A stretch of DNA of 64,000 bases, from NCBI RefSeq assembly GCF_000166135.1, contig NC_014666.1, positions 5,828,001 through 5,892,000 of the forward strand. The letters run 5' to 3'. A program made the position numbers and the translations under genes. The DNA comes from Pseudofrankia inefficax. GTDB taxonomy: Bacteria; Actinomycetota; Actinomycetes; Frankiales; Frankiaceae. Shown piece by piece: positions 9,354-55,878 of this stretch (positions within the stretch are counted from its first letter, which is position 1; each line of letters begins with the position of its first letter). The notes under the pieces were generated by a model that searched no databases, had not been told where the DNA came from, and was given only the letters and a program-made list of their open reading frames with translations.

Positions 9354-9430
9354 TTGATCTCTGTCCTGGCCCTCGCATGGTCACAAAACCGGTGCGGGTA
9401 CAGCCACGGGAGGGCGGAAGCAGCGATCTT
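9354..9430 (+). repeat. 77-bp palindromic element, copy A
   Basis: First of four 77-bp copies (others at 9991, 29407 and 55802). Ends are TTGATC and GATCTT; the stem includes GCCCTC/GAGGGC; the non-palindromic core TGGTCACAAAACC fixes the orientation. It starts 115 bases after the methyltransferase stop, in the same orientation. Similarity to copy C continues about 55 bases past the element as far as a shared GGCACTAG. Confidence 0.85.
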
Positions 9431-9515
9431 GGTGGCTCGGGACGGGGTCAGCCCTTCCGGTTGCGGCACTAGGCTGCGGGGACGGGGAACACCCGATTCT
9501 GGGAGGCCTGCCCGC

Positions 9516-9968
9516 ATGTCCAGCAGCACCAGCGCGGGCACCGCCGCCGCGCCCCCGTCCGGCGGGGTCACCGGGTTGCACCACATCCAGCTGGCGGTGC
9601 CCGCGGGCGTCGAGGACGCCTGCCGAGCGTTCTGGGTCGGCCTGGTCGGGCTGACCGAGGTGCCCAAGCCGGCGCCGATGGCGGCCCGGGGCGGGGCGTG
9701 GTTCCGCGGGCCGGGCTTCGAGCTGCACGTCGGCGTCACGGCCGACTTCACGCCCGCGACCAAGGCCCACCCGGCCATCCTGGTCGACGACATCGACGCG
9801 TTCGCCGAGCGCCTCACCGCCGCCGGTGTCCCCCTGGACTGGGCCCATGACTTCCCCGGGCACCGGCACTGCTACGTCGCCGACCCGGTCGGCAACCGGA
9901 TCGAGTTCCTCATGCCCGGCCCGGCAGCCGAGGCCGCCCCAGATCGTCCGCCAACCCGGCAGCGGTAG
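9516..9968 (+). CDS. VOC-family (glyoxalase/dioxygenase fold) protein
   Basis: From the ATG at 9516, 150 residues with one vicinal-oxygen-chelate module pair: GLHHIQLAVPAGVEDACRAFW at the start, FELHVGVTADF in the middle, HPAILVDDIDAFAERL, and the closing DPVGNRIEF. Metal ligands of the fold are plausible at the HHIQ histidine and the FELHVG and NRIEF positions. Substrate unknown. GGAGG ten bases upstream supports this start; the open frame runs upstream through repeat copy A, which is unlikely to be coding. The gene is bracketed by 77-bp copies A and B. Confidence 0.8.
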   Translation: MSSSTSAGTAAAPPSGGVTGLHHIQLAVPAGVEDACRAFWVGLVGLTEVPKPAPMAARGGAWFRGPGFELHVGVTADFTPATKAHPAILVDDIDAFAERLTAAGVPLDWAHDFPGHRHCYVADPVGNRIEFLMPGPAAEAAPDRPPTRQR

Positions 9969-9990
9969 ACCTGACGCCGCCCGTCAGGCC

Positions 9991-10067
9991 ATGATCGCCG
10001 TTTGGGCCCTGGAATGGTCACGGAAACGTCCCCGCCACGACCACGCCAGGGCCGAGACCGCGGTCAA
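9991..10067 (+). repeat. 77-bp palindromic element, copy B
   Basis: The most diverged copy, 22 bases after the VOC stop and in its orientation, between convergent genes. Ends are ATGATC and GGTCAA. Its stem reads GGCCCTGG/CCAGGGCC where copies A and C read GCCCTC/GAGGGC, so position 21 and its partner 57 have changed together (C-G to G-C), which supports a folded structure. Confidence 0.8.
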
Positions 10068-10093
10068 GGCCATCGTGGCCGGCGGGATGCCGT

Positions 10094-12556
10094 CTAGGAC
10101 CGCCGGGCGGCGGGTGGCGCGGGCGGGCCCCAGGGCTCGCCGGCCGGGACGTCGCGCAGGACGATGCCGGCGACGACCTTGGCGGCGAGCAGGGACTCGA
10201 TCTCGGCTGGTGGGAAGCCGGCCTCGGCCAGGACCAGCCGGGTGTCGTGGCCGACGAGCACCGTGCGCGCCGGTGGCCGGCCGGCGTCCTGTACCCAGGT
10301 CCCGTAGCCGCGGGCGATGTGGAAGCGGCCATAGCGCGGGTCCGCCACGACATGGGTGAAGCGGTTGGCCACCAGGTGCGGGGCCTCGACGTGCTCGTCC
10401 TCCAGGGTGACCGGAACCGCAGGGATCCCACGGGCGGCGAGCGCCCCGGCCGTGTCACGCACCGACCGGTGGGCGAGTGCCGCCGCGAGGGCCGCGGCCA
10501 GCTCGTCGTCGCCGCCCTCGGCGCCGCCCGGGAGGCCGGCCGGGAGGCCGGCCGCGTCGACCAGCCCGGCGACCTGGGCGGCGGTGATGGCGGCCACCGC
10601 GAGCCAGCCGTCGGCGCACTGGTAGTAGCGGTGGCCGGCCGTCGGGCCGGGGAAGTCGGCGCGGCCACGCGGGGCCGGCGGGCGGCCCGCGTAGTCGGTG
10701 AACTCTGGCGACTGCAGGAAGGTCGCCGTGTTGGCCAGCGACAGGTAGAGCCGGTCTCCGGCGCCGTCGCGGCCGCGGGCGTAGAGCGCGGCCAGCGCCG
10801 ACAGCGCGCCGAGCACACCGGTCCCCGTGTCGTTCAGCGGGATCGGGGTCAGCACCGGGTCGTCGTCGCCGCCCTGCGCGTCGGCGAGGCCCGACAGCGC
10901 CTGGAACACCGGGTCGAAGCCGGGTGCGTCGGCGTACTCGCCCGCGTGGCCGTAGGCGGAGACCGAGCAGCGCACCAGGCCCGGATTGCCGGCCAGCACC
11001 CGCTCGGGGGTGAGCCCGGCCCGTTCCATCCGGCCCGGCCGCATGTTCTCGACGAACAGGTCCGCGCCACGCAGCAGCCGCAGCAGCACGTCCGCCCCGC
11101 CGGGGGCGCCGATGTCGAGGGCGACCGACCGCTTGTGCTGGCTCGCGACCAGGACCGACATCGGGAACACCCGGAACGGGTCACCGTCCGGGGGCTCGAC
11201 CTTGACGACGTCCGCGCCCCAGTCCGCGAGGATCTCCCCGATCAGCGGCCCGGCCAGGTAGGAGGACAGGTCGACGACCCGGATCCCGGACAGTGGCAGC
11301 CGTCCCGCCGACGGCGCCTCGTCGGTGGCCGGGCCGTCCTGCCCGGGCTGGGCATCGGGCCACAGCTCACCGCCGGCCGGCAGGTCCTCGGGGACCGGGA
11401 AGGCTCCGGGGACGGCCGGGGTCCGGGTGAGATCGACGGGGAACCCGGGCAGGGTGACCGGACCGACCTCCGGGTGCTCACGACGAACGAACGCGTGGTT
11501 CGCGGCGACGATGTCGCGGCCGGCCCACTCGGCCCGCCTGGCGATCGGCGCGCACGGGACGTCGTGGGCGGCGAACAGCTCCAGCCACTCGGCCAGCGGC
11601 CGGCGGCGGAACTCGGCGACCAGCTCGTCGACGACCAGCTTGCCGCCCTGCTCCCAGACCTGGAGCCGGTTCCAGTCGCCGTCGACCCCGGGCTGGACGA
11701 GGACGTCCATCCGGTCCATCGCGTCCAGCGCGCGGATGAAGATCTCCGGGACGAGCGCGGCCAGGTAGAGCCAGCGGCCGTCGGACGTCTGGTAGTTCCG
11801 CCAGTAGGGGACGCCCTTCCCGGTGGTCTTGGAGCCGCGCACCACCGGGACGTCGAGGCCGACCTGGGTCATCATCCCGAGCTGCGCCGCGGCAGCGTCG
11901 AGGCCGCTCACGGTGACGCCGTGGCCGCGGCCACCGTCCCGGCGGCGCCCGAGCAGCGCGGCGATGGCGGCCGCGGCGCCGAGCGCGCCGTGCAGGTGCG
12001 TCGTCGTGGCCGTCACCGGCGCGACGGGACAGTCCCAGGTCGCCGGGTTGCGGGCGGCGACACCGCCGAGCGCGGCGAGCAGCAGCGGGTCCTCGGCGAC
12101 CTCGGCCCACTCGCCGTGCTCGCCGTAGGGCGGCAGCCAGACCGGGCACAGCCGCGGGTACCCGCTGGCCAGCTCGGCGGCGGTCAGGCCCAGCGCCGCC
12201 AGCCGGGCTGGGGTCTGGTCGACCAGCAGCACGTCGGCTCCGCCGGCCAGCCGCGCCGCGTCGGCCGGCCCCATCCGGACGATCCGCTTCCCCCGGTCCC
12301 ACCAGAGGTCCTCAGGCAGGACCGGCTCTGACCCGCCCGCGTAGGCCGAGGGAGCCAGGGTGGAACCGCCGGCCGTGGGGCCGCCGGCCGTCGCCAGGTC
12401 GGCGCGGACGACCTGCGCGCCGAGGTCGGCGAGCAGCATCCCGGCGATCCGGCCCGCCCGCGTCACGGACGCCTCGAGCACCCGCACGCCGGCCAGCGCC
12501 GCGGGCCGCTCCCCCGCCGGTAACCCGTCGCCCGGGCCAGCCGCCACCGTCGCCAT
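10094..12556 (-). CDS. Tandem-domain class III CoA-transferase (CaiB/BaiF family)
   Basis: From the ATG at 12556 (GAGGA upstream) 820 residues. Two CaiB/BaiF domains are fused: the first, about residues 1-390, starts with LAGVRVLEASVTRAGRIAGMLLADLGAQVVRAD; the second, from about 425, starts with LSGIRVVDLSSYLAGPLIGEILADWGADVVKVEPP. The second has FVENMRPGRMERAGL and a conserved acidic residue in GFDPVFQALSGLADAQGG. The first is more diverged. Members move CoA between acids through a glutamyl or aspartyl thioester. A natural fusion may give an intramolecular pseudo-dimer, since this family normally interlocks two chains. Substrate unknown; nearby lipid and steroid-type genes suggest acyl-CoA catabolism. 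Confidence 0.85.
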   Translation of the reverse strand: MATVAAGPGDGLPAGERPAALAGVRVLEASVTRAGRIAGMLLADLGAQVVRADLATAGGPTAGGSTLAPSAYAGGSEPVLPEDLWWDRGKRIVRMGPADAARLAGGADVLLVDQTPARLAALGLTAAELASGYPRLCPVWLPPYGEHGEWAEVAEDPLLLAALGGVAARNPATWDCPVAPVTATTTHLHGALGAAAAIAALLGRRRDGGRGHGVTVSGLDAAAAQLGMMTQVGLDVPVVRGSKTTGKGVPYWRNYQTSDGRWLYLAALVPEIFIRALDAMDRMDVLVQPGVDGDWNRLQVWEQGGKLVVDELVAEFRRRPLAEWLELFAAHDVPCAPIARRAEWAGRDIVAANHAFVRREHPEVGPVTLPGFPVDLTRTPAVPGAFPVPEDLPAGGELWPDAQPGQDGPATDEAPSAGRLPLSGIRVVDLSSYLAGPLIGEILADWGADVVKVEPPDGDPFRVFPMSVLVASQHKRSVALDIGAPGGADVLLRLLRGADLFVENMRPGRMERAGLTPERVLAGNPGLVRCSVSAYGHAGEYADAPGFDPVFQALSGLADAQGGDDDPVLTPIPLNDTGTGVLGALSALAALYARGRDGAGDRLYLSLANTATFLQSPEFTDYAGRPPAPRGRADFPGPTAGHRYYQCADGWLAVAAITAAQVAGLVDAAGLPAGLPGGAEGGDDELAAALAAALAHRSVRDTAGALAARGIPAVPVTLEDEHVEAPHLVANRFTHVVADPRYGRFHIARGYGTWVQDAGRPPARTVLVGHDTRLVLAEAGFPPAEIESLLAAKVVAGIVLRDVPAGEPWGPPAPPAARRS

Positions 12557-12577
12557 GCGCCACCGTCCTCGGCTTCG

Positions 12578-12629
12578 TGCCTGGTACAGGCTCTGTTCGC
12601 ATCTGCCTGGTACAGGCTCTGTTCGTATC
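12578..12629 (-). promoter_or_regulatory. 26-bp tandem repeat just upstream of the CoA-transferase start
   Basis: Two copies (12578-12603 and 12604-12629) differ at one base and each contains CCTGGTACAGG, a CCTG-NNN-CAGG inverted repeat. They begin 22 bases before the ATG on the minus strand, so bound protein would block initiation. Tandem copies at this place look like paired operators; the regulator is unknown. Confidence 0.5.
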
Positions 12630-12636
12630 AACGAAC
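12621..12636. promoter_or_regulatory. Perfect inverted repeat overlapping the second 26-bp repeat
   Basis: GTTCGT-ATCA-ACGAAC spans 12621-12636, 65-80 bases upstream of the CoA-transferase start. It is compatible with a TetR-type operator or a small hairpin. Confidence 0.45.
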
Positions 12637-12942
12637 GCGACGTCCGGCATCCGAATCCGCCCGGCGGGCGGCACCGCCAGGCCGGCGTGGAAGGCCGGCC
12701 GCAGGCCCGCGGGTCGGGTTATCCCCAGTAGGGATTGGTGGGTCTGCGCGATCGTCCCGGCGCGCGAACCGATCTACGGTCGACACAACGTCCCGGGCAA
12801 CGGGACGCGGCGGCGCACGACGCGCCGCTCGACGGCGAGAACAGCGGGACGCGAACGAGATGACGACGCGATCAGGTCCGCGGCGGGCGAGGGCCCGCCT
12901 GGGGACACCCGCCCGGGCAGCCCGGGCCGGCAGGTGGGACCG

Positions 12943-14226
12943 ATGAACGCGCTCGGCACGGCGCTGCGGGCGACGTTCGGGCGCCGCGCCTGGCTGGCGA
13001 CGATGTTCAGCGCCCAGACGGCGCTGCTGGGGACGTTCAGCTTCGCCCTCGTGCTCACCCTCGTCGTCGCCGGCGCGTCCACCGTCTGGCTCATCCCGAT
13101 CGGGCTGCCGCTGCTCTGGCTGGCGCTGGCGCTGGCGCACCAGTTCGCCCGGTTCGAGTCCTGGCGGTACGCGGCCTACCTCGGCGAGCGGCTGCCGCTG
13201 CGCCCGGTGCCGCCGGCCGCGTCGCCGGATTCCGGCCGGCTGGGCCGGGCCTGGTCGCGGATGTGGGCCCGGCTGCGTACCGGCGGCAGCTGGCTGGAGA
13301 CCGTCTACGCGCTGTTCGTGCTGCCGCTGGTGGGCTGGGTGGGCGGCTGGGTGGTCGCGACGTTCTGGGGCGGCGCGGTCGCGTTCCTGCTGTTCCCCGC
13401 CTACGGGCACCGGCTCGGGGGGCCCGACGAGGTGGTCGGCGTCGACCTCGGCTACGGCGGCGCGGTGGCCGCGCACGTCGTCGCCGGGGTGCTCGCGCTG
13501 GTCGCCGCGCCGTGGCTGGCCCGGGGCCTGACCGCGTTGGAGCTCGCCATCGCCCGCCGGATGCTCTGCCCGCGCGACAGCGAGGCGCTGACCCGGCGGG
13601 TGGCGGACCTGGAGGCGAGCAGGGCCGGGATGGTCACGGCCGCCGCGGCCGAGCGCCGCCGGATCGAGCGCGACCTGCACGACGGGGCCCAGCAGCGGCT
13701 CGTCTCCGTCGCGATGACGCTGGGGCGGGCGCAGGAACGGTTCGCGGCCGACCCCGACGGCGCCCGCGGCCTGCTCGCCGAGGCGCACGCCGAGACCAAG
13801 CGTGCCCTCGTCGAGCTGCGGGACCTCGCCCGGGGCCTGCACCCGGCGGTGCTCACCGACCGCGGCCTCGACGGGGCGTTGCCCGGTCTGGCCGCGCGCT
13901 GCCCGGTACCCGTCACCCTGGACGTCGCGGTGGCGCCGCGGCCGTCCGCCGAGGTGGAGGCGGTCGCCTACTTCTTTGTCGCCGAGGCTCTGACGAACAT
14001 CGCCCGCCACGCCGCGGCCGACACGGCCCGCATCGTCGCTCGCCGCGTCGGTGACCGGCTGGAGGTCGAGGTCAGCGACGACGGCACCGGCCGGGCCAGG
14101 GAGGCCGGCGGATCCGGCCTGTCCGGCCTGCGGGACCGGGCGCTGGCCGTCGACGGCTCGTTCTCCGTCACCAGCGCCCCCGGAACCGGCACGACCCTAC
14201 GGCTGGACCTGCCATGCCAGAACTGA
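12943..14226 (+). CDS. NarL-type two-component sensor histidine kinase, orphan
   Basis: From the ATG at 12943 (GGTGGG upstream) 427 residues. The first 220 hold several hydrophobic segments (LGTFSFALVLTLVVAG, IGLPLLWLALALA, LPLVGWVGGWVVATFWGGAVAFLLF, AAHVVAGVLALVAAPWLA), so the sensor is in the membrane. HisKA_3 follows with the phospho-acceptor His246 in ERDLHDGAQQRL, then HATPase_c with the N-box VAEALTNIARHA near 350 and DDGTG. Such kinases normally pair with a LuxR-type response regulator; none is adjacent. The next gene overlaps or follows within 40 bases and encodes a DUF4097 membrane protein, so the pair probably senses or responds to envelope state. Confidence 0.88.
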   Translation: MNALGTALRATFGRRAWLATMFSAQTALLGTFSFALVLTLVVAGASTVWLIPIGLPLLWLALALAHQFARFESWRYAAYLGERLPLRPVPPAASPDSGRLGRAWSRMWARLRTGGSWLETVYALFVLPLVGWVGGWVVATFWGGAVAFLLFPAYGHRLGGPDEVVGVDLGYGGAVAAHVVAGVLALVAAPWLARGLTALELAIARRMLCPRDSEALTRRVADLEASRAGMVTAAAAERRRIERDLHDGAQQRLVSVAMTLGRAQERFAADPDGARGLLAEAHAETKRALVELRDLARGLHPAVLTDRGLDGALPGLAARCPVPVTLDVAVAPRPSAEVEAVAYFFVAEALTNIARHAAADTARIVARRVGDRLEVEVSDDGTGRAREAGGSGLSGLRDRALAVDGSFSVTSAPGTGTTLRLDLPCQN

Positions 14227-14264
14227 CCCCGCCCACCGGTCCCGCCTCCGAGGGAGACAGCGCG

Positions 14265-15158
14265 ATGGCCGACCTCTCGACCGCGCCGGCCACCACCGCG
14301 ACGGCCCTCACCGGGCCAGACGGCGGCGGGTCTGGCGGCGACCAGCCGCCGACGGCCCGTTCGGACGCCGGTCACCCCGGGGCCCGCGTCATCCTGCTCG
14401 TCCTGGGAACCGTGCTCGCGCTGGGGTTCGCCGCGTTCGCCGGAAGCCAGGCGATGAACTGGACGACCGGTCGGGACAAGGTCGACCAGCACGCCGTCCT
14501 GCCCGCGTCGGTCACCCGGCTGGAGATCAACACATCCAGCGGGAACGTGATCCTGACCGGCGTCGCCAGCGGGCCGGCCGTCGTCGACGCGCACCTGACC
14601 AGCACGATCCGCGCGCCCCGGCTGAAGGTCGACGTCTCCGGCGGCACGGCGAAGGTGAGCGCCCACTGCGGCTGGAACTTCACGCTCAGCTGCGGCGCGA
14701 CCCTGCGGATCACCGTTCCGGCCGGCGTCACCGTGGTGGCCCGCTCGTCGTCCGGCGACATCCGGGCGACCGACCTGCGCGGCCCGGTCGACCTCGCCAC
14801 GTCCTCCGGCAACGTCATCACCTCCGGTGGCACCGGCACGGCCCGGCTGAGCACCTCGTCCGGCGACGTACGGGCGACCGGGCTCGCCGCCACGTCGGTG
14901 TACGCGCACTCGTCGTCGGGCGACGTCTCGCTGCGGCTGACGGCGATCCCCGACGACGTGACGGCGACGACGTCGAGCGGCGACGTACGGGTCGCCGTGC
15001 CGGACGGCCCGTCGCCCTACCTGGTGTCGGTGCACACGTCGTCCGGCGACCGGACGGTCGGGGTCCGCACCGACCCGACCGCCCGGCGCCGGATCACGGC
15101 GAGAACCAGCTCGGGCAACGCCTCCGTCGTCTACGCTCCCGCCGACCAGCGGCCGTGA
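14265..15158 (+). CDS. DUF4097-family membrane protein with beta-strand repeats
   Basis: From the ATG at 14265 (GAGGGAG eight bases upstream) 297 residues; an upstream ATG at 14214 overlapping the kinase stop is also possible. A cytoplasmic stretch of about 40 residues leads to one membrane helix (VILLVLGTVLALGFAAFAGSQAM). The extracytoplasmic part consists of repeated strands built on SSGNV/SSGDV (more than six copies), the DUF4097 beta-solenoid pattern. The family is common beside envelope-stress or two-component genes but has no fixed biochemical function. Translational coupling with the kinase suggests a shared role. Confidence 0.82.
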   Translation: MADLSTAPATTATALTGPDGGGSGGDQPPTARSDAGHPGARVILLVLGTVLALGFAAFAGSQAMNWTTGRDKVDQHAVLPASVTRLEINTSSGNVILTGVASGPAVVDAHLTSTIRAPRLKVDVSGGTAKVSAHCGWNFTLSCGATLRITVPAGVTVVARSSSGDIRATDLRGPVDLATSSGNVITSGGTGTARLSTSSGDVRATGLAATSVYAHSSSGDVSLRLTAIPDDVTATTSSGDVRVAVPDGPSPYLVSVHTSSGDRTVGVRTDPTARRRITARTSSGNASVVYAPADQRP

Positions 15159-15511
15159 CCGTCGCCCCGTGCCGTTCCGATGCCGCCGGAGCACCGCGAG
15201 CGACGGGCGCCTCCCGGTGGGCCAGGCCGCCGTTCGCGGTGATCGCCGGCCCGGCGGGTGGTCGCCGTTTACGCCCGAATCGCGTTTTAGGGCCGCAGCT
15301 GTCGGATACAGGACACCAATGGGGTTCGCCGATCGGCCACTGCGGCGCACTACGATTCCCGTACCGGCGCCGGGTCGGGGGCGATACCGGAACCGGCCGC
15401 CGACATTGTGCCCACGGACATTGTGCCCACGCACGGGACGCCTGCTGGCCAGCCCGAAGGATGCGGGAAAGCCCTCCGCCTCCGGTGGCCCTGGAACGTA
15501 TAGGTGGTCGG
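15159..15511. other. Intergenic region with a 15-bp tandem duplication
   Basis: No gene seen in 353 bases. GACATTGTGCCCACG occurs twice in succession at 15402-15416 and 15417-15431, about 80 bases upstream of the next gene, where a promoter is expected. The duplication could double a regulator site. Confidence 0.55.
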
Positions 15512-16240
15512 ATGCCTGACGACCGCGGTTCGCAACACCAGGTAGACCCAGATCAAGCAATCCGCGCGTCGTCACGAGAGGCGCCGCGCCCATCCGACCG
15601 GTCGGCCCTGGGCCGCCGGTTCTTCCTCGCCGACCCGCGCGCCCAGACCGGGCCCGGCCGGGTCCGGCTCGCCGAGATCGCGGCCGAGCTCGTCGATCCG
15701 GACGCCGCCCGGCGGTGGTACCAGCGGCTCGACCTGGAGGTGCTGGGCGCCATCGCCACGCCGCACGGCCAGCTGACCACGCTGCTGGCCGGTGAGCCGC
15801 CCGCGGGTGGCGCCGGCCGGGGCGCCCGCCAGCGGGTCCGGGCCGTGCTGGAGGGGCGCGGTCTCGGCTGGCTGTGCGACGACGACGAGCGTGGCGAGCA
15901 CGCCGAACGTGCCTGGGACGCGCTCTACGCCGCCCACTACGGGGTCGACGACGCGGTCGGCCAGGTCGAGTGCCTCACCCAGGTGCTCGCGGTGTGCCGG
16001 CTCGCGGAGCTCGCCTACTCCAGCGCCGACATCGGCTGGCGGGAGCTGGCCGACGCGGCCTCGGCCCGGCCGATGGTGCCGGCCGAGATCTACCGGCCGC
16101 AGCGCGACCGCCGGCAGCGGCCGCCCGACCAGGTCGTCCAGGCCGTCGCGATGCCGGTCGCGCGGACCGAGCTCGACCGGGTCGCCCTGGACGCCGCGCT
16201 CGACTCGGCGGCCCTGCGGTCCGGGGCCGAGGAGGCCTGA
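15512..16240 (+). CDS. Hypothetical protein, mostly helical
   Basis: The ATG at 15512 follows GGTGG closely, giving 242 residues. I do not recognise a family. The sequence is soluble, acidic and alanine-rich with predicted helices, for example RLAEIAAELVDPDAARRWYQRL and GQVECLTQVLAVCRLAELAYS; it contains YRPQRDRRQRPPDQV near residue 194. There is no signal peptide or membrane segment. It ends 12 bases before the convergent neighbour. Confidence 0.6.
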   Translation: MPDDRGSQHQVDPDQAIRASSREAPRPSDRSALGRRFFLADPRAQTGPGRVRLAEIAAELVDPDAARRWYQRLDLEVLGAIATPHGQLTTLLAGEPPAGGAGRGARQRVRAVLEGRGLGWLCDDDERGEHAERAWDALYAAHYGVDDAVGQVECLTQVLAVCRLAELAYSSADIGWRELADAASARPMVPAEIYRPQRDRRQRPPDQVVQAVAMPVARTELDRVALDAALDSAALRSGAEEA

Positions 16241-16252
16241 GCCGCGGTCCCG

Positions 16253-17731: not shown

Positions 17732-17872
17732 CGCCACGGGCGCAGTGTCGCACGCGTGGGCGCGCCGATCCCCCAACCTTCATGATCGCGACGACCAGAC
17801 CACAGCGCCGGCCTGGGGCGCGGACCCGCAGGTCGACGGACGCGCGGATCGACCGGCGCGCACAGTGGAGGC

Positions 17873-18742: not shown

Positions 18743-18761
18743 GCCGATAGAGTCCGCCAAC

Positions 18762-19310: not shown

Positions 19311-19491
19311 GCACGGTCGACGGGCCGTGGCCGCGGGCCGTGTCGGCATCCTGACAAAGGTCCGGTCGGGCCCGAAATCCCCCTAGCCAGGCGCGAAATG
19401 CTCGCCAGAATGGGATTTGCGCACTCCGTGACCGGGCCGGCACAGCGGTCCCGCGGAGCCGGGCCCGCCGCGACGGCCCCGCGCGACCACG

Positions 19492-28490: not shown

Positions 28491-29360
28491 TTGTTCGAGT
28501 CGGTCGCGGAGCCGGTGTCGCCCGCCGGGGCCACCGAGCCGGTGTCGCCCGCTGAGGCGACCGAGCCGCTGGTGCTCGTCGAGGCTGAGGGCGCCGTGCT
28601 GACGGTGACGTTGAACCGGCCGGCGAAGCGGAACGCCACCAACGCGGAGGTGCTCTGCCGGCTCTACGACGCCTGGCGCCAGCTCGACGAGGACGACTCG
28701 CTGCGGGTCGCGATCCTCACCGGGACGGGCAGCACGTTCTGTGCCGGCATGGACCTGGGCGAGATCATCCGGCTGCGCCAGGGCGTCCGGGACAACGAGT
28801 GGATCATCCGCCTGCAGGACGACCCGGGCATCTCGCTGAAGGCCTACCTGAAGCGGTACCGCCCGACGAAGCCGGTGATCCTGGCCGTCGAGGGCTTCGC
28901 CAGGGCCGGCGGCACGGAGATCCTGCAGGGCACGGACATCCGGGTCGCCGGCGAGAGCGCCGTGTTCGGGGTGACCGAGGTGCAGCGCGGGCTGTTCCCG
29001 ATGGCGGGCTCGGCGGTCCGGCTGCGCCGCCAGATCGGCTACGCCGTCGCCGCGGAGATGCTGCTGACCGGCACGGACCTGACCGCGCGGCGCGCCCACG
29101 AGCTCGGCCTGATCAACCACGTCGTGCCGGACGGGCAGGCCCTGGCCAAGGCCCGCGAGATCGCCGACCGGATCGCCCGCAACGGCCCGCTGGCGGTGCG
29201 CGCCATCCTCGCGACCCTGCGCGAGACGGAGACACTGCCCGAGCCGGACGCCTTCGGCATCGAGGAGCGCCAGGGCGGCGCCGTCATGCGCTCGAAGGAC
29301 GCCGTGGAGGGCCCGGTCGCCTTCCTGGAGAAGCGCGAACCCGTCTTCACTGGTACCTAG
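28491..29360 (+). CDS. Enoyl-CoA hydratase/isomerase family protein (crotonase)
   Basis: The start is TTG 28491 with GGGAGG six bases upstream; 289 residues. The N-terminal 20 residues contain a duplicated EPVSPA block. Crotonase features: the first oxyanion-hole segment FCAGMDLGEI near 83-92, the second in AVEGFARAGGTEILQGTDIRVA, and a catalytic-type glutamate in GVTEVQRGLFPMAGSAVRL. The enzyme would hydrate or isomerise an enoyl-CoA intermediate. A KstR-type operator lies directly upstream, so control by sterol intermediates is likely. Similar crotonases occur in steroid side-chain and ring catabolism. Confidence 0.88.
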   Translation: MFESVAEPVSPAGATEPVSPAEATEPLVLVEAEGAVLTVTLNRPAKRNATNAEVLCRLYDAWRQLDEDDSLRVAILTGTGSTFCAGMDLGEIIRLRQGVRDNEWIIRLQDDPGISLKAYLKRYRPTKPVILAVEGFARAGGTEILQGTDIRVAGESAVFGVTEVQRGLFPMAGSAVRLRRQIGYAVAAEMLLTGTDLTARRAHELGLINHVVPDGQALAKAREIADRIARNGPLAVRAILATLRETETLPEPDAFGIEERQGGAVMRSKDAVEGPVAFLEKREPVFTGT

Positions 29361-29543
29361 ACCTGGAGAGAAGGGGTGCCCGGTCCGGCGACGCCGTCCC
29401 GCCGGCTTGATCGCCGTTTTGGCCCTCAGGTGGTCACAAAACCGCCGCGGTTACAGCCACGCGAGGGCGGAAACAGAGATCTTGCCGGTCTCCGGCGAGG
29501 GCAGCCTTGTCAGATTCGGCACTAGACCTGGAGGGGTGCCCGG
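29357..29543 (+). repeat. Imperfect direct repeats flanking 77-bp copy C
   Basis: CTAGACCTGGAG followed by GGGGTGCCCGG occurs at 29357-29383 (with AGAA inserted) and again at 29522-29543. The first copy includes the crotonase stop TAG; the second ends at the base before the next gene's ATG and provides its ribosome binding site GGAGGGG. The 77-bp element lies between them. Confidence 0.75.
29407..29483 (+). repeat. 77-bp palindromic element, copy C
   Basis: Ends TTGATC and GATCTT; stem GCCCTC/GAGGGC; an inner hairpin ACCGC-C-GCGGT follows the core GGTCACAAA. It starts 46 bases after the crotonase stop in the same orientation, and it is nearly identical to copy A in the core. Confidence 0.87.
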
Positions 29544-48265: not shown

Positions 48266-48304
48266 GTCAACCCAACCATTTCCCTTTGTCGACCCGTCAG
48301 GTGC

Positions 48305-49528
48305 CTAGGAGAGCCCCGCCGCCCACGGGTAGCTCTTCAGGTACGGATCGGGTTTGATCGGGCCGGGCGACGACCAGACGGCCTTGATCTGGCCATCGGT
48401 GCCGATGAGACCGATGCGGGCGGTCTTGTAGACGTGCTGGGTGGCACCGTCGATGGTGACGTGGCCTTCCGGCAGGTCGAGAGCGATACCACCGGCGTCG
48501 GCGGCGGCCTTTACCTTCGCCACGTCGAAGGACCCGGCCTTCTCGACCGCGGCCTTCCACAGGTAGACGGCGTTGTACGCGGCCTCCATCGGGTCCGACG
48601 TCACCTTGTCCGAGCCGTACTTGGCCTTGAACGCGGCGACGAAGTCCTTGTTCGCGGGCGTGTCGGTCGTCTGGTAGTAGTTCCAGGCGACGTACTGGCC
48701 GGCCAGGTACTGCGTGCCGATCGCCTTGACCTCTTCCTCGGCGATGGACACGGACATCGTCGGGATCTGGTCCGGGCCGATGCCGGCCGACTTCAGCTGC
48801 TTGAAGAAGGCCACGTTCGAGTCGCCGTTGAGCGTGTTGAAGACGAAGTCAGGCTTGGCCTGCTGGATCTTGTTGACGATCGTCGAGACCTCGGTCGCCC
48901 CCAGCGGGAGGTACTCCTCGCCGTCGATCGTCATCCCGTTCGCCGCCGCGTAGGCCTTGATCTCCTTGTTGGCGGTACGCGGGAAGACGTAGTCGCTGCC
49001 GACCAGGAAGATCTTCTTCTTGCCCTGCTCCTTGATGTAGTCAAGCGCCGGGATGATCTGCTGGTTGGTGGTCGCGCCCGTGTAGAAGATGTACGGGCTC
49101 TGCTCGAGGCCCTCGTACTGGACCGGGTACCAGAGCAGCGCCTTGTTCTTCTCGAACACCGGCAGCATGGCCTTGCGGCTGGCCGAGGTCCAGCCACCGA
49201 AGACGGTGGCCACCTTGTCCTGCGAGATGAGTTTCTGAGCCTTCTCAGCGAAGGTCGGCCAGTCCGAGGCACCGTCCTCGACAACCGGCTCGATCTTCTT
49301 CCCGAGCACGCCGCCCTTGGCGTTGATCTGATCGATCGCGAGCATCTCGGAGTTCTTCACCGTGACTTCGGAGATGGCCATGGTGCCACTCAGCGAGTGC
49401 AGCAGGCCAACCTTGACGGTGTCCGACGACGAACCGCCGGACGATCCCCCCGACCCCCCACAGGCCGCGAGCAGAAGAGCAGGCAGCACCGCGAGCGGCG
49501 CCAACCTACGCCAGGACTTTCGAAACAA
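48305..49528 (-). CDS. urtA: Urea ABC transporter substrate-binding lipoprotein UrtA
   Basis: TTG 49528 with GGGAGGG eight bases upstream, 407 residues. Lipobox LLLAACGG with Cys23, then a Ser/Gly linker. The mature part has [68 protein letters not shown] and [23 protein letters not shown] and FYTGA are characteristic of UrtA rather than general amino acid receptors. It heads the five-gene operon. Repeated half-sites upstream could bind the nitrogen regulator GlnR. Confidence 0.95.
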
Positions 49529-50020
49529 TTCCGTGCCCTCCCTAGGACGCTGGTAACGATCAGTCTAGGGAGACCCGTTACCGCGGCAGCCTCGCCGAGT
49601 TAAGCGAACGTTAATCCGGCGAGAGCGGTGTTTTCCAGGCCGGTGCCACCGGCGACGCGCCGGGCGAACGACCGCACCCCCGCTGACAAGGAATGCGAGA
49701 AGAACACACATACGCTAGGGCAGAAGCCGTCGGCGTGCCTCGCGCAGGGAAGCACGTCATGAGATTGTTACGCTCAGCAGCAGGTGTTTCCGGACCATTT
49801 CTCGAACGGCCCCGAAAATCCGGCGGCGACTCCGGACTTCGTTCACCGTGTGTTACGGACTCGTTCACCGGGCCGCGCGGCCGGCGCCTGTCGGGTGGGT
49901 CACATCCCTGTCCGGGCAACGGCCTTGGACGGCACGGACCCCCACGACGAGGCCATCGGTCGCCGCCGGGGCCTCAGCCTCACGCCGCGGGCGCGGCGCG
50001 CTCCGGCGGGATCGGCCGGG
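49529..50020. other. Intergenic region upstream of urtA
   Basis: No gene seen in 492 bases. The part next to urtA carries the regulatory sequences listed below. The remainder up to the GGDEF-EAL gene end holds only short noisy frames and a repeated CGTTCACCG (near 49841 and 49861). Confidence 0.55.
49552..49614 (-). promoter_or_regulatory. urt leader: inverted repeat and spaced TTAAC half-sites
   Basis: GGTAAC (49552-49557) and GTTACC (49577-49582) are reverse complements with an inner GTCT/AGAC stem, enough for a leader hairpin or a dimer site. Further upstream of urtA, GTTAA occurs twice with six bases between (49599-49614; TTAAC-N6-TTAAC on the coding strand). Spaced GTNAC/GNAAC half-sites 11 bases apart are the GlnR pattern in actinobacteria, but the match here is partial. 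Confidence 0.4.
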
Positions 50021-53000
50021 CTACGGCCAGCGGTACAGCCCGTTGGACGGGCCGCCTGCCTCGCCGTTGTTCAGCGTCACGACCTGCGTCTCCGCCGCGT
50101 CGCGGACGGGCGGGCGTGGGGCGCCGCTGGCGGGCTCGCCGCCGGCCACCCGGGTCTCGTCCTCGTCCGGGCCCAGGCCGGCGGGATCCACGGCGTCCGC
50201 CGACCCGGCCGCCTCGGCCCGAGCCGCGGCCGCGGCGGCGCGGGTGTCGCCCGGCTGCCGCCGGCCCCAGGGCAGCGACCCGCCGCGGCGGGCGGGCCGG
50301 CCACCGTCGCCCCGCGCGTCCGGCTGCCGGTGCGCGCCGCGGCCGCCGGCCCGGCCCTCGTCGAGCGGTCGCGGCTCGTCCATGCCGTCGCCAGGGCCAG
50401 GGCCAGCGCCAGCGCCAGCGCCAGCGCCAGCGCCAGGAGAACGATCACCGTGGGGCTCGGGTCCGGTCCACTGACGCCTGACCGAACCGACATAGCCGTC
50501 GTACGGCCCCGGCCAGGCCGGACCATCGCCGACCGCCGGGCCACGCGCCACGTCGTCGCCGCGACCGCCAGGCTGGGCCGGGCGAACGGGTCCGTCGAGC
50601 TCGTCCGTGTCGTCGTCGGACGCGGCGGCCGCGCCACCGAAGCCGCCGAGACCGACGATGCCGCCGATGTCGAGCCCGTTGCGCGGGACGGCCGGGCCAC
50701 CGTCGGCACCGCTGCCCCGTTCGGAGCCTCTGCCCTGGTCGGCGCCTCTACCCTGGTCGGAGCCTCTGCCCTGGTCGGCCCCGGAGCCGACGCCAGAGCC
50801 CAGACCGGCGCCGGAGCCCAGACCGGCGCCGGGCCCGGCCGCGACGACACCGCCGACGGACACGATGTCCCACGGGGCCGGGCCGGCGGCGCCTGGCGTG
50901 GTCCACCCGCCGGCCGGCGCGGCGGGCGCCGGGCCGGTGGCCGTCCGTTCGCCGTCCGGCACGGTGCCGCGCGGCCCGAAGAGCGGGTCACGGCCGGCCT
51001 GGCCCACCCGGTCGAGCCCGAGCGGGTCGCGGCGCGACGCGTCGTAGCCGCCGTAGCCGCCGCCCTCGTAGCCGTCGCCGCGCTGCGCACCGTGGTAGCC
51101 GCCGCGGGCGAAGCCGCCGTACCCGCCGGTGCCGTACCCTCCGCCGGTCAGATCCACCCCGGGCATCCGCAGCCCGCCGCTCGGCGGGCCGCCGAGGGCG
51201 AACCCGCCGGTCGGGGGGTAGTCGGGAACCTGGTCACTGGGAGACAGCGGGGGCGGCGGCCCCATCGACGGGTAGGCCGGCGGCGCGGGAGGCACGGTGG
51301 CGGGCCCGTCGGTCCAGCCGGTCGGGCCGGCGCCGTCGGCCGGCCGCCCGCGGTTCGCGCCGCCGGCCGGGTCCGCGGGCGGCGGCGCGGGGTGGCCCGG
51401 TCCCGGCTGCTCCCAGCCGGGTGAGCCCGTGGACCACGGCGCCGGTGGACCGGCCGTGCCACCGGGGACGAGGTCATCGAACCCTGGGTTCTCCCAGGAC
51501 ACCGAGCCGCGGTGTTCCGCGCGGCGGCGCTCGGCCTCGATCCGGTCGCGCCGGGCCCGGTCCCGCTCGACCCGCTCACGCTCGGCCCGCTCCAGCTCCG
51601 CGTGCTCCCGTTCGAGCCGTTCGCGCTCGGCCCGCTCGGCCTCGGCGCGTTCCCGCGCCGCCCACGCGCGCTCGGCCCGCTCGCGCTCCAGCTCCGCCCG
51701 CTCACGCTCGATCCGCTCCAGGTCCGCCCGCTCACGCTCGGCGCGCTCACGCTCGGCCCGCTCGCGCTCCGCGCGTTCCAGCTCGGCCCGTTCCAGCTCG
51801 GCCCGTTCGTACTCGGCGCGCTCCAGCTCCGCCCGCTCACGCTCGGCCCGTTCACGCTCCGCGCGTTCCAGCTCGGCCCGCTCCAGCTCCGCGCGCTCAT
51901 AATCGGCACGGTCCAGCGCCGCGCGTTCGAGCTCGGCCCGCTCCAGCTCGGCGCGCTCGGACGCCGCGCGGTCCCGCTCGGCCTGCTCCCAGCCGGCGTG
52001 GTCGAACCCGGCCGCCGCCTCGTCAGCCAGCAGCCGCTCGGCCAGCAGCTCGGCGAGCGGGCGCGGCGGCCCGATGTGGAAGCCCTGCGCGTAGTCGACC
52101 CCGATGTCGGCCAGGACGCGGGCGAGGGACTCCCGGTCGACGTTCTCGGCGATCGTGTACATGCCGAGGGTGCGGGCGATACGCACCACCGCGTCGACGA
52201 GGGCCATGTCCTGCGCGTTCTCGTCCGCCTGCCGGACGAAGTCACCGTCGATCTTGACGCCGCTGAACGGCAGCGTGCGCAGGTGCACCACCGATCCCAT
52301 CCCGACCCCGAAGTCGTCGAGGATGAACCGGCAGCCGGCCGCGGTGAGCTTCTCGGCCAGCCGGCGGGCCGGCTCGACGCTCACCAGGGTGGACCGCTCC
52401 GCGATCTCCAGGCCGAGCCGGGTCGGGTTGACGGCGCTGCCGCGCAACGCGTCGAGAACGAAGTCACCGAAGCCGGGGTCCTCGACCGAGCGCGCGGAGA
52501 TGTTGACGTGCAGGTACAGCGACCCGTGCGGCCCGTCGGCGGCGAGGGCGGCGACCGCCTGGCCCACGACCCACCGGTCCAGCCGCAGCACCAGCTCGGT
52601 CCGCTCGACCGGTTCGAGGAACTCCCGCGGCGACAGCTCCGGCAGCAGCCCGTCCCGCAGCCGCACCAGCAGCTCGTAACCGATGACGCGACGGGCCCCG
52701 AGATCGACGAGCGGCAGCGCGTCGACGGCGAGGGTGCCGCTCTCCAGCGCGACCCGGACCCGCTGGGTGACCGACACCCGCCGTTCGGCCTGGGAGTACT
52801 GGGCATCGGTGAACAGCCGGGCCCGGTCGCGGCCGGCGTCCTTGGAGTCGTAGAGCGCGAGGTCCGCCTGGGCGAGCGCCGCGGTCTCGTTGTCGACGTG
52901 CGCGAGCGGGACCACGCCGATGCTGACCGTGACCCGCAGGGCCAGCTCGTCGACCGGGACCGGCGTCCGCGCGACCGCCTGGCAGACGCGCTCGGCGACC

Positions 53001-54592
53001 GCGAGGCCGGCGTCGCCGTCACCGTCGCGCAACAGCACCGCGAACTCGTCGCCGCCGAGCCGGCCGAGCACCGCGTCGGGCAGTTCCTCGCGCAGCACCT
53101 GGCTCAGGCCCCGCATGACGATGTCGCCGACGGCGTGGCCGCGCAGGTCGTTGATGTCCTTGAAGTGGTCGACGTCGATGATCAGGAGCGAGCCGGACCG
53201 GCCGGCGGGGGCCGCGGCGAGGTGGTCGCGCAGCGCCTTGTTGATCGCCCGGCGGTTGAACAGCCCGGTCAGCGCGTCCCGCTCCGCGAGGTGCGCGAGC
53301 TCCTGCTGGACGCGGTGCAGGTCGGTGATGTCGCGCGAGGTGCCCAGCACCCGGGCCGGGGTGCCGGCGTCGTCGGTGATGACCTCCCCGAAGCACTCGA
53401 AGACCCGCTCGCCCTGGCCGAACCGGTCGCGCAGCCGGTGCAGGTAGGTGAAGGTACCGGGCGTCCGGATCGCGGCCGCGACCGCGGACCGGATCGTGCG
53501 CATGTCCAGGGGCGGCAGCAGCTGCTCGATCTGGTCCAGGTCCATCTCGTCGCCGCCGCGGAAGCCCAGCAGCTTCAGCTGGTTGCGGGAGAAGCTGACC
53601 GAGCCGGCGATCAGGTCCCACTCCCAGGTGCCCGTGCGGGTGAGCTCCTCGATGCGGTCGAGACGGTCCGGGCCGGACAGCAGCAGCAGCGCGGCCCCGC
53701 TCGCGCTCGGGTTCAGCATGACCTGCTGGCCGGCCTCGGCGGCGGCTGGCGCCGAGTCGGGCTCGGCCTCACCGGGCGGCAGGACGGACGGACGCGGGAC
53801 GACCGGCCGGGCCATCATGACCGTGTCGTCGGTGACCGGCGTGCCCCAGGCCGCCTGGTCCCATTCGGGCGTGCCGCGCCACGCCTCGTCGCCGCCGCCC
53901 GCCGGGGCGGCCCAGCCGGCGGCGGTGACCGCGACAGCGGGGTAGGCGTCGGTGACGTCGAAGACCTCGTAGAGCACCAGGCCGTCGGCCCAGCCGTCGC
54001 CGGGCGGGGTGAGCCGCTGGCAGCGCAGCCGTAGCCGGCGCTCGGCGCCGTCCGGCCCGATCCACGGAACGTCGACCGGACCAGCGCCGACGACCAGCCC
54101 GGACAGCGGCAGCCGCGCCTCGGCGACGGCCCGGCGCGCCAGCGCACGGGACGACTCGGGCAGCGGGTCACCCAGCCGCTCGGCGAACCGGTCGTCGGCC
54201 CGGCTGTTGCCCGCCCCGCCCGGGGTCGCGTCCGGGTCTCCCGCGGACACGCTCAGGCCGGTGGCCGCGGCGGCCGGCCGCGGGCCGGGGTTCACGGCGG
54301 CCACATCCGGGCCGGCCTTCGCTGCGGCCAGGTCCGGGCTCGGGTCTCCAGCGGCCGGGCCCGGCCCGGGCTCCCCGGCCGACACGCTCAGGCCGGTGTT
54401 CTTGGCCGGGTTCGGGCCGGTGCGTTCGCCGTCCGCGACGGCCGGTTCGCGGCCCGCCGGCGCGAGCCCGACGACCCCCGCGAGCGCCGCGTTGACCCAG
54501 ACGACCCGGCCCTCGGTGTTCACCAGTAGCAGGCCCGCCGAGACGGCGTCGGCCACCAGCCCTGTCACCCCGGCGACCAACGCACCTCCCAC
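50021..54592 (-). CDS. Very large PAS-GGDEF-EAL protein (cyclic di-GMP turnover) with charged repeat helix
   Basis: Start taken at GTG 54592 (a TTG at 54580 is possible), 1,523 residues. N-terminal PAS-like segment (GLLLVNTEGRVVWVNAALAGVVGL), a Pro/Gly/Ala linker, a second PAS (IEELTRTGTWEWDLIAGSVSFSRNQLKLLGF), then GGDEF at about 513 in LGRLGGDEFAVLL with LLIIDVDHFKDIND, so cyclase activity is likely. The EAL domain from about 635 has ELL for EAL, HVNISARS, LEIAER, LDDFGVGMG, VKIDG, AENVD and YAQGFHIG; metal and base residues seem kept. Residues 868-1030 are ERAEL-type pentads; the last 490 are Pro/Gly-rich with more short repeats. No membrane helix is obvious. Confidence 0.9.
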   Translation of the reverse strand: MGGALVAGVTGLVADAVSAGLLLVNTEGRVVWVNAALAGVVGLAPAGREPAVADGERTGPNPAKNTGLSVSAGEPGPGPAAGDPSPDLAAAKAGPDVAAVNPGPRPAAAATGLSVSAGDPDATPGGAGNSRADDRFAERLGDPLPESSRALARRAVAEARLPLSGLVVGAGPVDVPWIGPDGAERRLRLRCQRLTPPGDGWADGLVLYEVFDVTDAYPAVAVTAAGWAAPAGGGDEAWRGTPEWDQAAWGTPVTDDTVMMARPVVPRPSVLPPGEAEPDSAPAAAEAGQQVMLNPSASGAALLLLSGPDRLDRIEELTRTGTWEWDLIAGSVSFSRNQLKLLGFRGGDEMDLDQIEQLLPPLDMRTIRSAVAAAIRTPGTFTYLHRLRDRFGQGERVFECFGEVITDDAGTPARVLGTSRDITDLHRVQQELAHLAERDALTGLFNRRAINKALRDHLAAAPAGRSGSLLIIDVDHFKDINDLRGHAVGDIVMRGLSQVLREELPDAVLGRLGGDEFAVLLRDGDGDAGLAVAERVCQAVARTPVPVDELALRVTVSIGVVPLAHVDNETAALAQADLALYDSKDAGRDRARLFTDAQYSQAERRVSVTQRVRVALESGTLAVDALPLVDLGARRVIGYELLVRLRDGLLPELSPREFLEPVERTELVLRLDRWVVGQAVAALAADGPHGSLYLHVNISARSVEDPGFGDFVLDALRGSAVNPTRLGLEIAERSTLVSVEPARRLAEKLTAAGCRFILDDFGVGMGSVVHLRTLPFSGVKIDGDFVRQADENAQDMALVDAVVRIARTLGMYTIAENVDRESLARVLADIGVDYAQGFHIGPPRPLAELLAERLLADEAAAGFDHAGWEQAERDRAASERAELERAELERAALDRADYERAELERAELERAERERAERERAELERAEYERAELERAELERAERERAERERAERERADLERIERERAELERERAERAWAARERAEAERAERERLEREHAELERAERERVERDRARRDRIEAERRRAEHRGSVSWENPGFDDLVPGGTAGPPAPWSTGSPGWEQPGPGHPAPPPADPAGGANRGRPADGAGPTGWTDGPATVPPAPPAYPSMGPPPPLSPSDQVPDYPPTGGFALGGPPSGGLRMPGVDLTGGGYGTGGYGGFARGGYHGAQRGDGYEGGGYGGYDASRRDPLGLDRVGQAGRDPLFGPRGTVPDGERTATGPAPAAPAGGWTTPGAAGPAPWDIVSVGGVVAAGPGAGLGSGAGLGSGVGSGADQGRGSDQGRGADQGRGSERGSGADGGPAVPRNGLDIGGIVGLGGFGGAAAASDDDTDELDGPVRPAQPGGRGDDVARGPAVGDGPAWPGPYDGYVGSVRRQWTGPEPHGDRSPGAGAGAGAGAGPGPGDGMDEPRPLDEGRAGGRGAHRQPDARGDGGRPARRGGSLPWGRRQPGDTRAAAAAARAEAAGSADAVDPAGLGPDEDETRVAGGEPASGAPRPPVRDAAETQVVTLNNGEAGGPSNGLYRWP
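51505..51990 (-). repeat. Charged pentapeptide-repeat region of the GGDEF-EAL gene
   Basis: About 30 units of 15 bp encode variants of ERAEL/ERAER/ERAEY. Glu and Arg alternate with a period of five, which is not a heptad coiled coil; such ER-rich runs often form a single stable helix. Units differ by few bases, so copy number may vary between strains. Confidence 0.9.
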
Positions 54593-54724
54593 GCAGCTGT
54601 CGGCCTGGGTCGTGCCGGGCGCCCTGCTGGATCGGCGAAGGCCGATCTGGTGGGTCGCGTCGGCGCTGGCCAGGCCCTCCGCTGCGCAGTCTAGCGGCAG
54701 TCGTCCGAGTACATTCCGTTAGGG

Positions 54725-54743
54725 GTTCCGGACCCTGCGGAAC
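54725..54743 (-). terminator. Hairpin downstream of bacterioferritin
   Basis: GTTCCG (54725-54730) pairs with CGGAAC (54738-54743) across seven bases, 30 bases after the bfr stop. No U-tract. Confidence 0.5.
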
Positions 54744-54772
54744 AGGCCGCCTGCCAGGGAGTCTCGCGTCCC

Positions 54773-55261
54773 CTAGTCGCCCGAGCCGTGCTCGTGGATC
54801 TGCTCGGCCAGGTACTGCGGCGCACCGAGCTGGCGGATCAGCTCCAGCTGGGCCTCCAGCCAGTCGATGTGCTCCTCCTCCTCGGAGATCAGCCACTCGA
54901 GGAGGGTGGCGGAGCCGAAGTCCGACTTGCTCCGGCTCAGGGTCACGCCCTTGCGCAGGGTCTCGACGTTCTCCAGCTCGCGGGCGTAGTCGAGCTCCAG
55001 CATCTCGGGCACGTTCTCGCCGGTGCGCAGCGGGTGCAGCCGCTGCAGGTTGGGGTGGCCGTCGAGGTAAAGAATCCGATGAATGATCTTGTCGGCGTGC
55101 TTCATCTCGTCGATCGACTCGTCGCGGTAGTGATGCCCGAGCCCGTGGAATCCCCAGTGCTCCTGGATGCGGTAGTGCAGGAAGTACTGGTTGATCGCGG
55201 TGAGCTCGTTCGTCAGCACCGCATTCAGGATCTCGACAACCTCGTCGTCACCACGAACCAC
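54773..55261 (-). CDS. bfr: Bacterioferritin
   Basis: GTG 55261 with GGAGG five bases upstream is preferred to the GTG at 55273; 162 residues, the usual length. Iron-storage subunit of a 24-mer. Visible: NELTAINQYFLHYRIQEHWG with the first ferroxidase Glu, DESIDEMKHADKIIHRILYLDGHPNLQ with the Glu-Met-x-His group (ferroxidase Glu and His, and the haem-ligand Met), and LLEWLISEEEEHIDWLEAQL with the second Glu/His pair. It is 74 bases downstream of bfd and probably in one operon under iron control. Confidence 0.95.
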   Translation of the reverse strand: MVRGDDEVVEILNAVLTNELTAINQYFLHYRIQEHWGFHGLGHHYRDESIDEMKHADKIIHRILYLDGHPNLQRLHPLRTGENVPEMLELDYARELENVETLRKGVTLSRSKSDFGSATLLEWLISEEEEHIDWLEAQLELIRQLGAPQYLAEQIHEHGSGD

Positions 55262-55335
55262 CCAGGCCTCCACTCGTCGTCACGCCGCCGCGACGCTCCG
55301 CAGTGGTCGTCGCCGGTCGGCCAGGTCCGGAGCCG

Positions 55336-55533
55336 TCAGGCGGCCCAGGCAGCGCCAGCGACCGGCATCTCACGGAGATGACGGGAGAGCAGGTCCGCGA
55401 TCTCTTCGCGGCATCCCCCGCAGCCAGTGCCGGCGTCGCAACGCTCACCGACCTCATCGGCGTCGTGCGCACCCGACTCAATGACTTTCCGTAGCGTCCG
55501 GTCGGAGACAGCAAAGCACGAGCAGACCAGCAT
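55336..55533 (-). CDS. bfd: Bacterioferritin-associated ferredoxin
   Basis: A 65-residue BFD-like [2Fe-2S] protein. Cluster ligands Cys4 and Cys6 (VCSCFAVS) and Cys38 and Cys41 (GTGCGGCREE) have the exact spacing of Bfd; one more Cys is at 32. It donates electrons to bacterioferritin so that stored Fe(III) can leave as Fe(II). Iron boxes lie 90-140 bases upstream. The order bfd-bfr is the common one. Confidence 0.95.
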   Translation of the reverse strand: MLVCSCFAVSDRTLRKVIESGAHDADEVGERCDAGTGCGGCREEIADLLSRHLREMPVAGAAWAA

Positions 55534-55621
55534 TGCACCCTCACCACGCGGACGGGCCCGGCGATATCTTCGCGACCAGGCAAGTTCATTCGGCGCAGGA
55601 CTTCCTAGCCACCAACATCGC

Positions 55622-55672
55622 TTAGCTAAGGCTTCCCTAAGAGCTACAGAATGCCACGTTAGGCTGCCCTAA
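55622..55672 (-). promoter_or_regulatory. Two iron boxes (IdeR/DtxR type) upstream of bfd-bfr
   Basis: 55622-55640 reads TTAGCTAAGGCTTCCCTAA, matching the 19-bp DtxR/IdeR consensus (TTAGGTTAGGCTAACCTAA) at most positions. 55659-55672 reads TTAGGCTGCCCTAA, a shorter half with a good dyad. The distance to bfd fits activation or repression by an iron-loaded regulator, as known for mycobacterial bfr genes under IdeR. Confidence 0.7.
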
Positions 55673-55801
55673 CACAAGGCGGCCTAAGTAGCGGCGCAGC
55701 TCACAGTCAGGCCCCGTCGGCATGCCCGGCGGAACGGGTGGCGGGGAAGCCAGTACGGGCCACCGACCGAGGCGCCGCGCCGGCCTCGCCCCAGGACCAG
55801 C

Positions 55802-55878
55802 AAGATCGCTGCTTTCGCCCTCGCCGGGCCGTAACCGCAGCGGTTTTGTGACCATTTGAAGGTCAAAACGACGATCAT
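55802..55878 (-). repeat. 77-bp palindromic element, copy D
   Basis: On the minus strand it begins ATGATCGTCGTTTTG and ends GCAGCGATCTT; the core TGGTCACAAAACCGC and the inner hairpin ACCGC-T-GCGGT are kept. It starts 43 bases after the stop of the OmpA-like gene and has that gene's orientation. Confidence 0.85.

Follow-up and report, generated by a model that had tools for sequence, protein, structure and literature searches.

A genus-specific family of palindromic, probably mobile repeats at gene ends in Pseudofrankia

A palindromic element occurs four times within a 64,000-nucleotide stretch of the Pseudofrankia inefficax EuI1c genome (NC_014666.1, positions 5,828,001 to 5,892,000; hereafter the window), each time on the 3' side of a gene. 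This raises the question of whether the copies represent RNA structures at transcript ends, mobile units, or both. An earlier note on this DNA had suggested a folded 3'-end RNA element or terminator, possibly spread as a MITE-like unit. Our analysis identified the four copies as members of a genus-specific repeat family with hundreds of copies in the genome.

The four copies and their repeat family

All four copies lie where they had been reported, are 77 bp long and have TGGTCAC in common (Table 1). A covariance model (R1) was built from 32 family members, with copies A, C and D but not B among its rows. Searching with this model recovered all four copies at 57.9-106.6 bits (E 4.7e-26 to 4.4e-13), whereas no other sequence in the window, apart from the opposite strands of these palindromes, exceeded 15.1 bits. 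The GATC described near both ends is present in general, the exception being copy B, which ends in GGTC and belongs to a different subfamily from the other window copies. The proposed spacing of 22-115 bases from the preceding stop codon agrees with the gene calls. Copy B occupies a convergent gap between the stop of the glyoxalase-like gene at 9968 and that of a CoA-transferase gene at 10094, a C-TAG stop, and is therefore 3' of two genes on opposite strands.

Table 1. Copies of the repeat and flanking direct repeats in the window. Fold z values and the number of shuffles folding as well refer to 200 dinucleotide shuffles per copy; distances run from the stop codon to the 77-bp element.
Feature	Position	Strand	77-bp element	R1 (bits)	RNA fold z (shuffles folding as well)	Upstream gene (distance)	Remarks
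Copy A, extended unit	9320..9472	+	9354-9430	86.5	-2.69 (0/200)	methyltransferase-domain (115 bp)	Degraded left end, weak in TIR-pair scan (11.7 bits); R1 core 9349-9435; right end ...GCGGCACTAG (24.1 bits), CTAG at 9469
Copy B, core	9986..10072	+	9991-10067	57.9	-5.94 (0/200)	glyoxalase-like (22 bp)	CCCTG...CAGGG subfamily; convergent gap
Copy C, extended unit	29361..29525	+	29407-29483	106.6	-4.75 (0/200)	enoyl-CoA hydratase-family (46 bp)	Host-like repeat at left end; right end GATTCGGCACTAG; flanking CTAG at 29357 (stop of the upstream gene) and 29522
Copy D, core	55797..55883	-	55802-55878	94.9	-2.31 (7/200)	OmpA-family (43 bp)	Core 38 bp past stop (55922)
Direct repeat flanking C, left copy (CTAGACCTGGAGAGAAGGGGTGCCCGG)	29357..29383	+
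Direct repeat flanking C, right copy	29522..29543	+					5 bases shorter; relative G001 has single-copy form

Over a contiguous 2.0 Mb of EuI1c, a profile search found 93 copies, a density of 46.5 per Mb that corresponds by extrapolation to ~410 copies genome-wide. A pattern drawn from the arms (at most 3 mismatches) matched the EuI1c genome 283+296 times on the two strands, whereas its reverse gave 0+0 matches. In a survey of 393 genomes of the class, more than one arm-pattern match was found only in seven of the eight genus members, with 579 in EuI1c, 666 in AgB1.9 and 13 to 69 in the other carriers; the eighth member, G007 (93% complete), had none, and six genomes outside the genus had one 3-mismatch match apiece. 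Similarly, R1 matched 7/8 genus members, 0/27 genomes from the rest of the family and 1/23 from the rest of the class (G041) in a search of 58 relatives. Its match counts, which include both strands, were at least 76 each in EuI1c and AgB1.9, 68 in G001, 61 in G003, 55 in G006, 19 in G004 and 15 in G005. Arm-pattern counts differ 8- to 50-fold across the genus, but because this pattern was drawn from EuI1c and the R1 figures lie closer together, we make no claim of a copy-number expansion within the genus.

In a contig collection, from which the window's own genome was possibly left out, 118 stretches matched exactly, 117 from AgB1.9 and one from BMG5.36. Copy C had no match at E 1e-5 in the plasmid and phage collections, and spread on plasmids or phages was rejected on these grounds. 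The titles and abstract openings covered by a literature search held no description of this repeat. The family is short, non-coding and present in many dispersed copies, as MITEs in general are, and its members sit in unrelated surroundings with variable flanks.

Position, fold and divergence of the copies

The placement of the family was assessed against genes from our own gene caller, which cover 87% of the 2.0 Mb. Convergent gaps hold 42 of the 93 copies, co-directional gaps 44, divergent gaps four and genes three; leaving out the three in genes, gap length alone would give 10% convergent, 53% co-directional and 37% divergent among the remaining 90. Expressed per adjacent gene pair, this amounts to 42/274 convergent, 44/1026 co-directional and 4/273 divergent pairs. 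Within co-directional gaps, the upstream stop is nearer than the next start for 37 of the 44 copies, at a median distance of 62.5 bp. The position 3' of genes is thus a property of the whole family. The reported agreement with the orientation of the gene is seen in all four window copies, with B also facing the convergent gene, but does not extend to the family: 28 copies in co-directional gaps have the same and 16 the opposite orientation (n=44, P = 0.10), or 15 versus 8 when only copies of clear orientation are considered. Of the three features that the earlier note had set against its own reading, namely random position, random orientation and absent covariation, only random orientation is approximately seen; the placement of copies is non-random, and some pairs do covary.

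Covariation was examined in an alignment of 104 copies (A2), which combines 88 EuI1c copies from the 2 Mb, the five of 93 scoring below 45 bits being left out, with 16 from other genus genomes. The covariation score of 0.140 exceeds that of all 500 shuffles (0.112), and 138 alignment cells are changed on both sides versus 100 in shuffles and 24 to 78 in slid controls, in a structure drawn by hand from the palindrome and among related sequences, which can exceed shuffles without any structure. The number of pairs changed on both sides (15) is close to that in shuffles (14.1), 211 of 500 of which reach 15. RNAalifold predicted only 10 pairs on A2, none of them covarying, and covariation was seen in 1/20 pairs of the 32 best copies (A1). 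The GATC ends and an inner GG/CC are nearly invariant across the 104 copies. Stem pair 21/57, which had been described as differing on both sides together, is C-G in 76 copies, G-C in 11 and U-G in two, and is unpaired in a further 14 and gapped in one (columns 25/66).

Stem covariation holds between subfamilies, but not between copies residing at the same site. More specifically, we compared 28 of 30 orthologous pairs in EuI1c and AgB1.9, dropping two with more than 15 core differences. Single changes kept the pair in 42 cases and broke it in 55; double changes kept it once and broke it five times, with ~1.3 kept expected. Given this lack of a compensatory excess, we did not adopt an RNA element conserved by pairing in place. 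At two sites (L022 / L206 and L024 / L199), the EuI1c and AgB1.9 copies differ at 21 and 22 core positions, as if one had been replaced by another subfamily through gene conversion or repeated insertion.

The stems nevertheless diverge slowly relative to their surroundings. Across the 28 orthologous pairs, divergence is 6.7% in the stem (107/1609 sites), 12.7% in the adjacent 45-bp arms on either side (257/2027) and 16.4% in the unpaired core (99/605), corresponding to a stem/arm ratio of 0.53 (0.42-0.64). Other intergenic sites diverge by 8.4%, and the stem/intergenic ratio of 0.79 (0.60-1.06) has an interval that includes 1. The comparison favors conserved cores, as pairs with one copy decayed beyond recognition are missed; one such remnant was seen. 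Slower stem divergence is compatible with selection on the hairpin and equally with refreshing by gene conversion.

The elements fold with a mean energy of -44.5 kcal/mol, versus -29.9 kcal/mol for 400 random intergenic pieces, of which 4.75% reach the elements' median. Such a stable, GC-rich hairpin is one half of an intrinsic terminator. The other half, a T-tract, is lacking: a run of at least four T within 15 nt was found in 0/93 copies on the genome's + side and 2/93 on the other side, and no terminator-like site was detected at copies A and B (window 9200-10200). The suggestion of a terminator is thus not supported in its canonical, intrinsic form. A known RNA family was likewise rejected, with no Rfam match above the gathering score in the window or at seven further loci.

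Insertion polymorphism and CTAG ends

The MITE-like dispersal suggested for the element is borne out by its abundance and by insertion polymorphism among relatives. Copies C and D are missing in G001 and copy B in AgB1.9, where A and D are present. The end of copy C, GGCA-CTAG, directly adjoins host sequence, and a single CTAG is present at this point in G001. The clearest empty site is that of AgB1.9 copy L175, which is missing in EuI1c; the empty site reads ...GACG-ACTAGTG... (...CACCGACG-ACTAGTGTTGC) and the element ends GTGGT-ACTAGTGTTGC. Its left end, ACGAATGCC, is two changes from ACTAGTGCC, the left CTAG having changed to CGAA. For B and D the empty sites are imprecise, and either copy may have been lost from the relative instead of inserted. 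The ~150-bp stretch around B that is missing in AgB1.9 extends into the glyoxalase-like gene, taking in its final codons and its stop (window 9940-9968), and repeat B may have altered the C-terminus of the gene product.

On a larger scale, ~340 kb of G001, G003, G004, G005 and G006 orthologous to or around the window contain no copy, and 26.6 kb of AgB1.9 matching the window region contain one, copy A. Sixteen AgB1.9 copies have flanks that fall within the 2 Mb sample of EuI1c; EuI1c shares 13 of these copies and lacks three, one of which (L209) faces a degraded remnant there. The sharing of 13/16 comparable copies indicates that movement is not fast. Sharing is also frequent over all comparable sites, at 28/32 AgB1.9 and 30/33 EuI1c copies, figures biased toward sharing because many loci were picked for carrying the element.

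Direct repeats of 19-27 bp flank copy C and AgB1.9 copy L222 and are not explained by a 4-bp duplication. Direct repeats scoring at least 14 were found at 3/208 copies, where 0.4 would be expected, and one of these lies in low-complexity sequence. Since few copies show such a repeat and the L175 junction fits CTAG alone, a target duplication of 19-27 bp was not adopted as the rule. At L222 (1068-1228), the 19-bp direct repeat GGACATCGTCASCTAGCGC apparently includes the end of the upstream gene.

Some copies are ~155-bp palindromes with CTAG at their ends. An outer-end pattern (CTAG-YGCCG) matched the whole genome 14+22 times, versus 0+0 for its reverse. Across 301 copies from EuI1c and AgB1.9, orthologues included, CTAG peaks on both sides of the core GATC, with 30 occurrences 36-38 nt upstream of it and 29 occurrences 39-42 nt downstream of it, over a background further out of ~0.3 per position. 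CTAG is roughly ten to seventeen times rarer in genes (0.074/kb) than between them (0.8-1.2/kb), and among 519 CTAG sites lying away from elements, 140 coincide with stop codons. The rarity of CTAG in genes and its frequency at stops thus provide a simple but incomplete reason for the 3' bias. CTAG sites alone predict ~20% divergent-gap and ~25% intragenic insertions, exceeding the divergent and genic copies observed, so that strong purging or another bias would be needed.

A recognizable outer end on at least one side is retained by only 20 of the 93 copies at a threshold of 14 bits. At this threshold, 24 of 28 TIR matches adjoin a core, partly by construction, as the matrix was trained on these ends; the TIR-pair list at 9 bits is weak, with 201 matches in shuffled sequence versus 79 in the genome. 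A search of 2.0 Mb of EuI1c, 0.95 Mb of AgB1.9 and our smaller loci revealed neither an autonomous element nor a transposase bearing these ends. Sixteen segments of at least 260 bp lie between inverted ends (nine long, seven mid-length), and ORFs were located for nine of them. Those of eight segments were scanned and contained no transposase domain, four having other Pfam domains and four no Pfam match; no autonomous parent was thus recognized among these eight. Furthermore, the 36 outer-end pattern matches in the whole genome include no forward-reverse pair 0.5-5 kb apart. An autonomous partner is optional for a MITE, orphan MITEs being common. IS481-type elements, which do not enter our interpretation, may target NCTAGN. 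At one AgB1.9 locus (L185:5116-5293), a 178-bp unit carries ends of this type (CCAGTGCC...GGCACTAG) yet lacks the 77-bp core, and it may represent a sister element that shares them.

Explanations and known systems

Taken together, these observations are probably best explained by an orphan, genus-specific, non-autonomous mobile palindromic (MITE-like) repeat that inserts at CTAG, survives at gene ends and partly keeps its hairpin. The mobile unit would measure ~155 bp, with outer inverted ends CTAG-YGCCG... around an imperfect palindrome of 77-87 bp, and would be moved by a transposase. Insertion would occur at CTAG, often the end of a C-TAG stop codon in this GC-rich genome. Such target choice, together with the loss of copies in genes and promoters, would leave survivors at gene 3' ends, foremost between convergent genes. 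Once a copy is in place, its outer ends would decay and its inner hairpin would be kept at about half their substitution rate, either because the hairpin has a local function, in the simplest case within the 3' UTR, or because gene conversion refreshes it.

Several of the same observations would be expected if the repeat were kept mainly for an RNA structure that works at 3' ends in both directions, serving to end, protect or insulate convergent transcripts, its spread being secondary. The share of convergent pairs occupied, the closeness of co-directional copies to the upstream stop, folds stronger than those of random intergenic pieces, stems slower than arms and covariation between subfamilies all point in this direction. 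The near-complete lack of T-tracts and the many broken pairs between orthologous copies, which indicate that pairing is not visibly selected in residents, argue against it, as do G007 and the ~340 kb of five relatives in which no copy was found; on balance, we regard this explanation as rather unlikely. Conserved stem sequence in residents that tolerate pair-breaking changes, combined with the nearly invariant GATC ends and inner GG/CC, could instead reflect a double-stranded DNA site for a chromosome-organizing or regulatory protein, dispersed by selection, in which sequence matters and pairing does not. Its occurrence in one genus only among the genomes searched, its insertion polymorphism and its CTAG ends make such a site very unlikely.

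Hundreds of short extragenic palindromes with a 3'-end bias and with variants differing among relatives would also be expected of a REPIN mobilized by a RAYT transposase of the Y1 type. None of the seven carriers (G000-G006) has a match to the corresponding domain, PF01797 (Y1_Tnp), on which ground RAYT/REPIN was rejected; G007, where the element was not found, has one. With CTAG outer ends on some copies as well, we consider a REPIN origin extremely improbable.

Returning to the mobile repeat, a tentative extension, possible rather than likely, is its domestication for use at 3' ends: delivered to genes by transposition into C-TAG stop codons, it would insulate converging transcripts without a T-tract, and its hairpin would be selectively kept after the mobile ends decay. 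If so, such hairpins would mark ~15% of convergent pairs in EuI1c (42 copies in 274 pairs over 2 Mb). T-tract terminators are thought to be scarce in high-GC actinobacteria, and hairpins acting on convergent transcripts would offer a clear case of transposon-supplied transcript-end signals in one of these bacteria. Independently of this, the family forms a large natural set, with hundreds of copies for which a close relative provides both orthologous and empty sites, and it lets one ask how small mobile palindromes reach gene ends, whether by target choice (CTAG at stop codons), purging or usefulness.

Among the genomes compared here, the nearest resemblance is found in G041, from another actinobacterial family. 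It carries a separate palindrome family with 24+28 arm matches, compared with single matches in three of the 392 other genomes searched, and R1 finds 20 weak matches in it (best E 9.2e-7). Both families have the outer arm GATCGCYGTTTT in common, and one of two inspected G041 copies (L114) also ends in GGTGGCGCTAG, whereas the inner arm is CATGATCTC in G041 and NNGCCCTC in the Pseudofrankia repeat. The two G041 copies, L107:119-199 and L114:1502-1582, read AAGATCGCYGTTTTCATGATCTC...GAGATCATGAAAACRGCGATCTTG.

Of the established systems, REP/REPIN sequences with RAYT likewise comprise hundreds of extragenic palindromes in several variants; in addition to the missing Y1 transposase and the CTAG ends, the Pseudofrankia unit differs in being longer than a REP doublet. 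ERIC, an imperfect palindrome of more than 100 bp, is similarly intergenic, present in tens to hundreds of copies and markedly different between relatives. It belongs to another phylum, and the CTAG ends and the better preservation of the core than of the outer ends set the Pseudofrankia repeat apart. The intergenic location of ERIC, its copy-number range and insertions at 3' ends are reported in PMC10969869, which also places QMITE2 of Coxiella burnetii mainly in 3' untranslated regions and likens truncated MITE copies lacking repeats and ends to REPs. QMITE1/QMITE2 come from an unrelated host and are likened here by description only. Judged by anatomy, the Pseudofrankia repeat may work like ERIC-type repeats, and it appears to form a new family within a well-known type of bacterial repeat.
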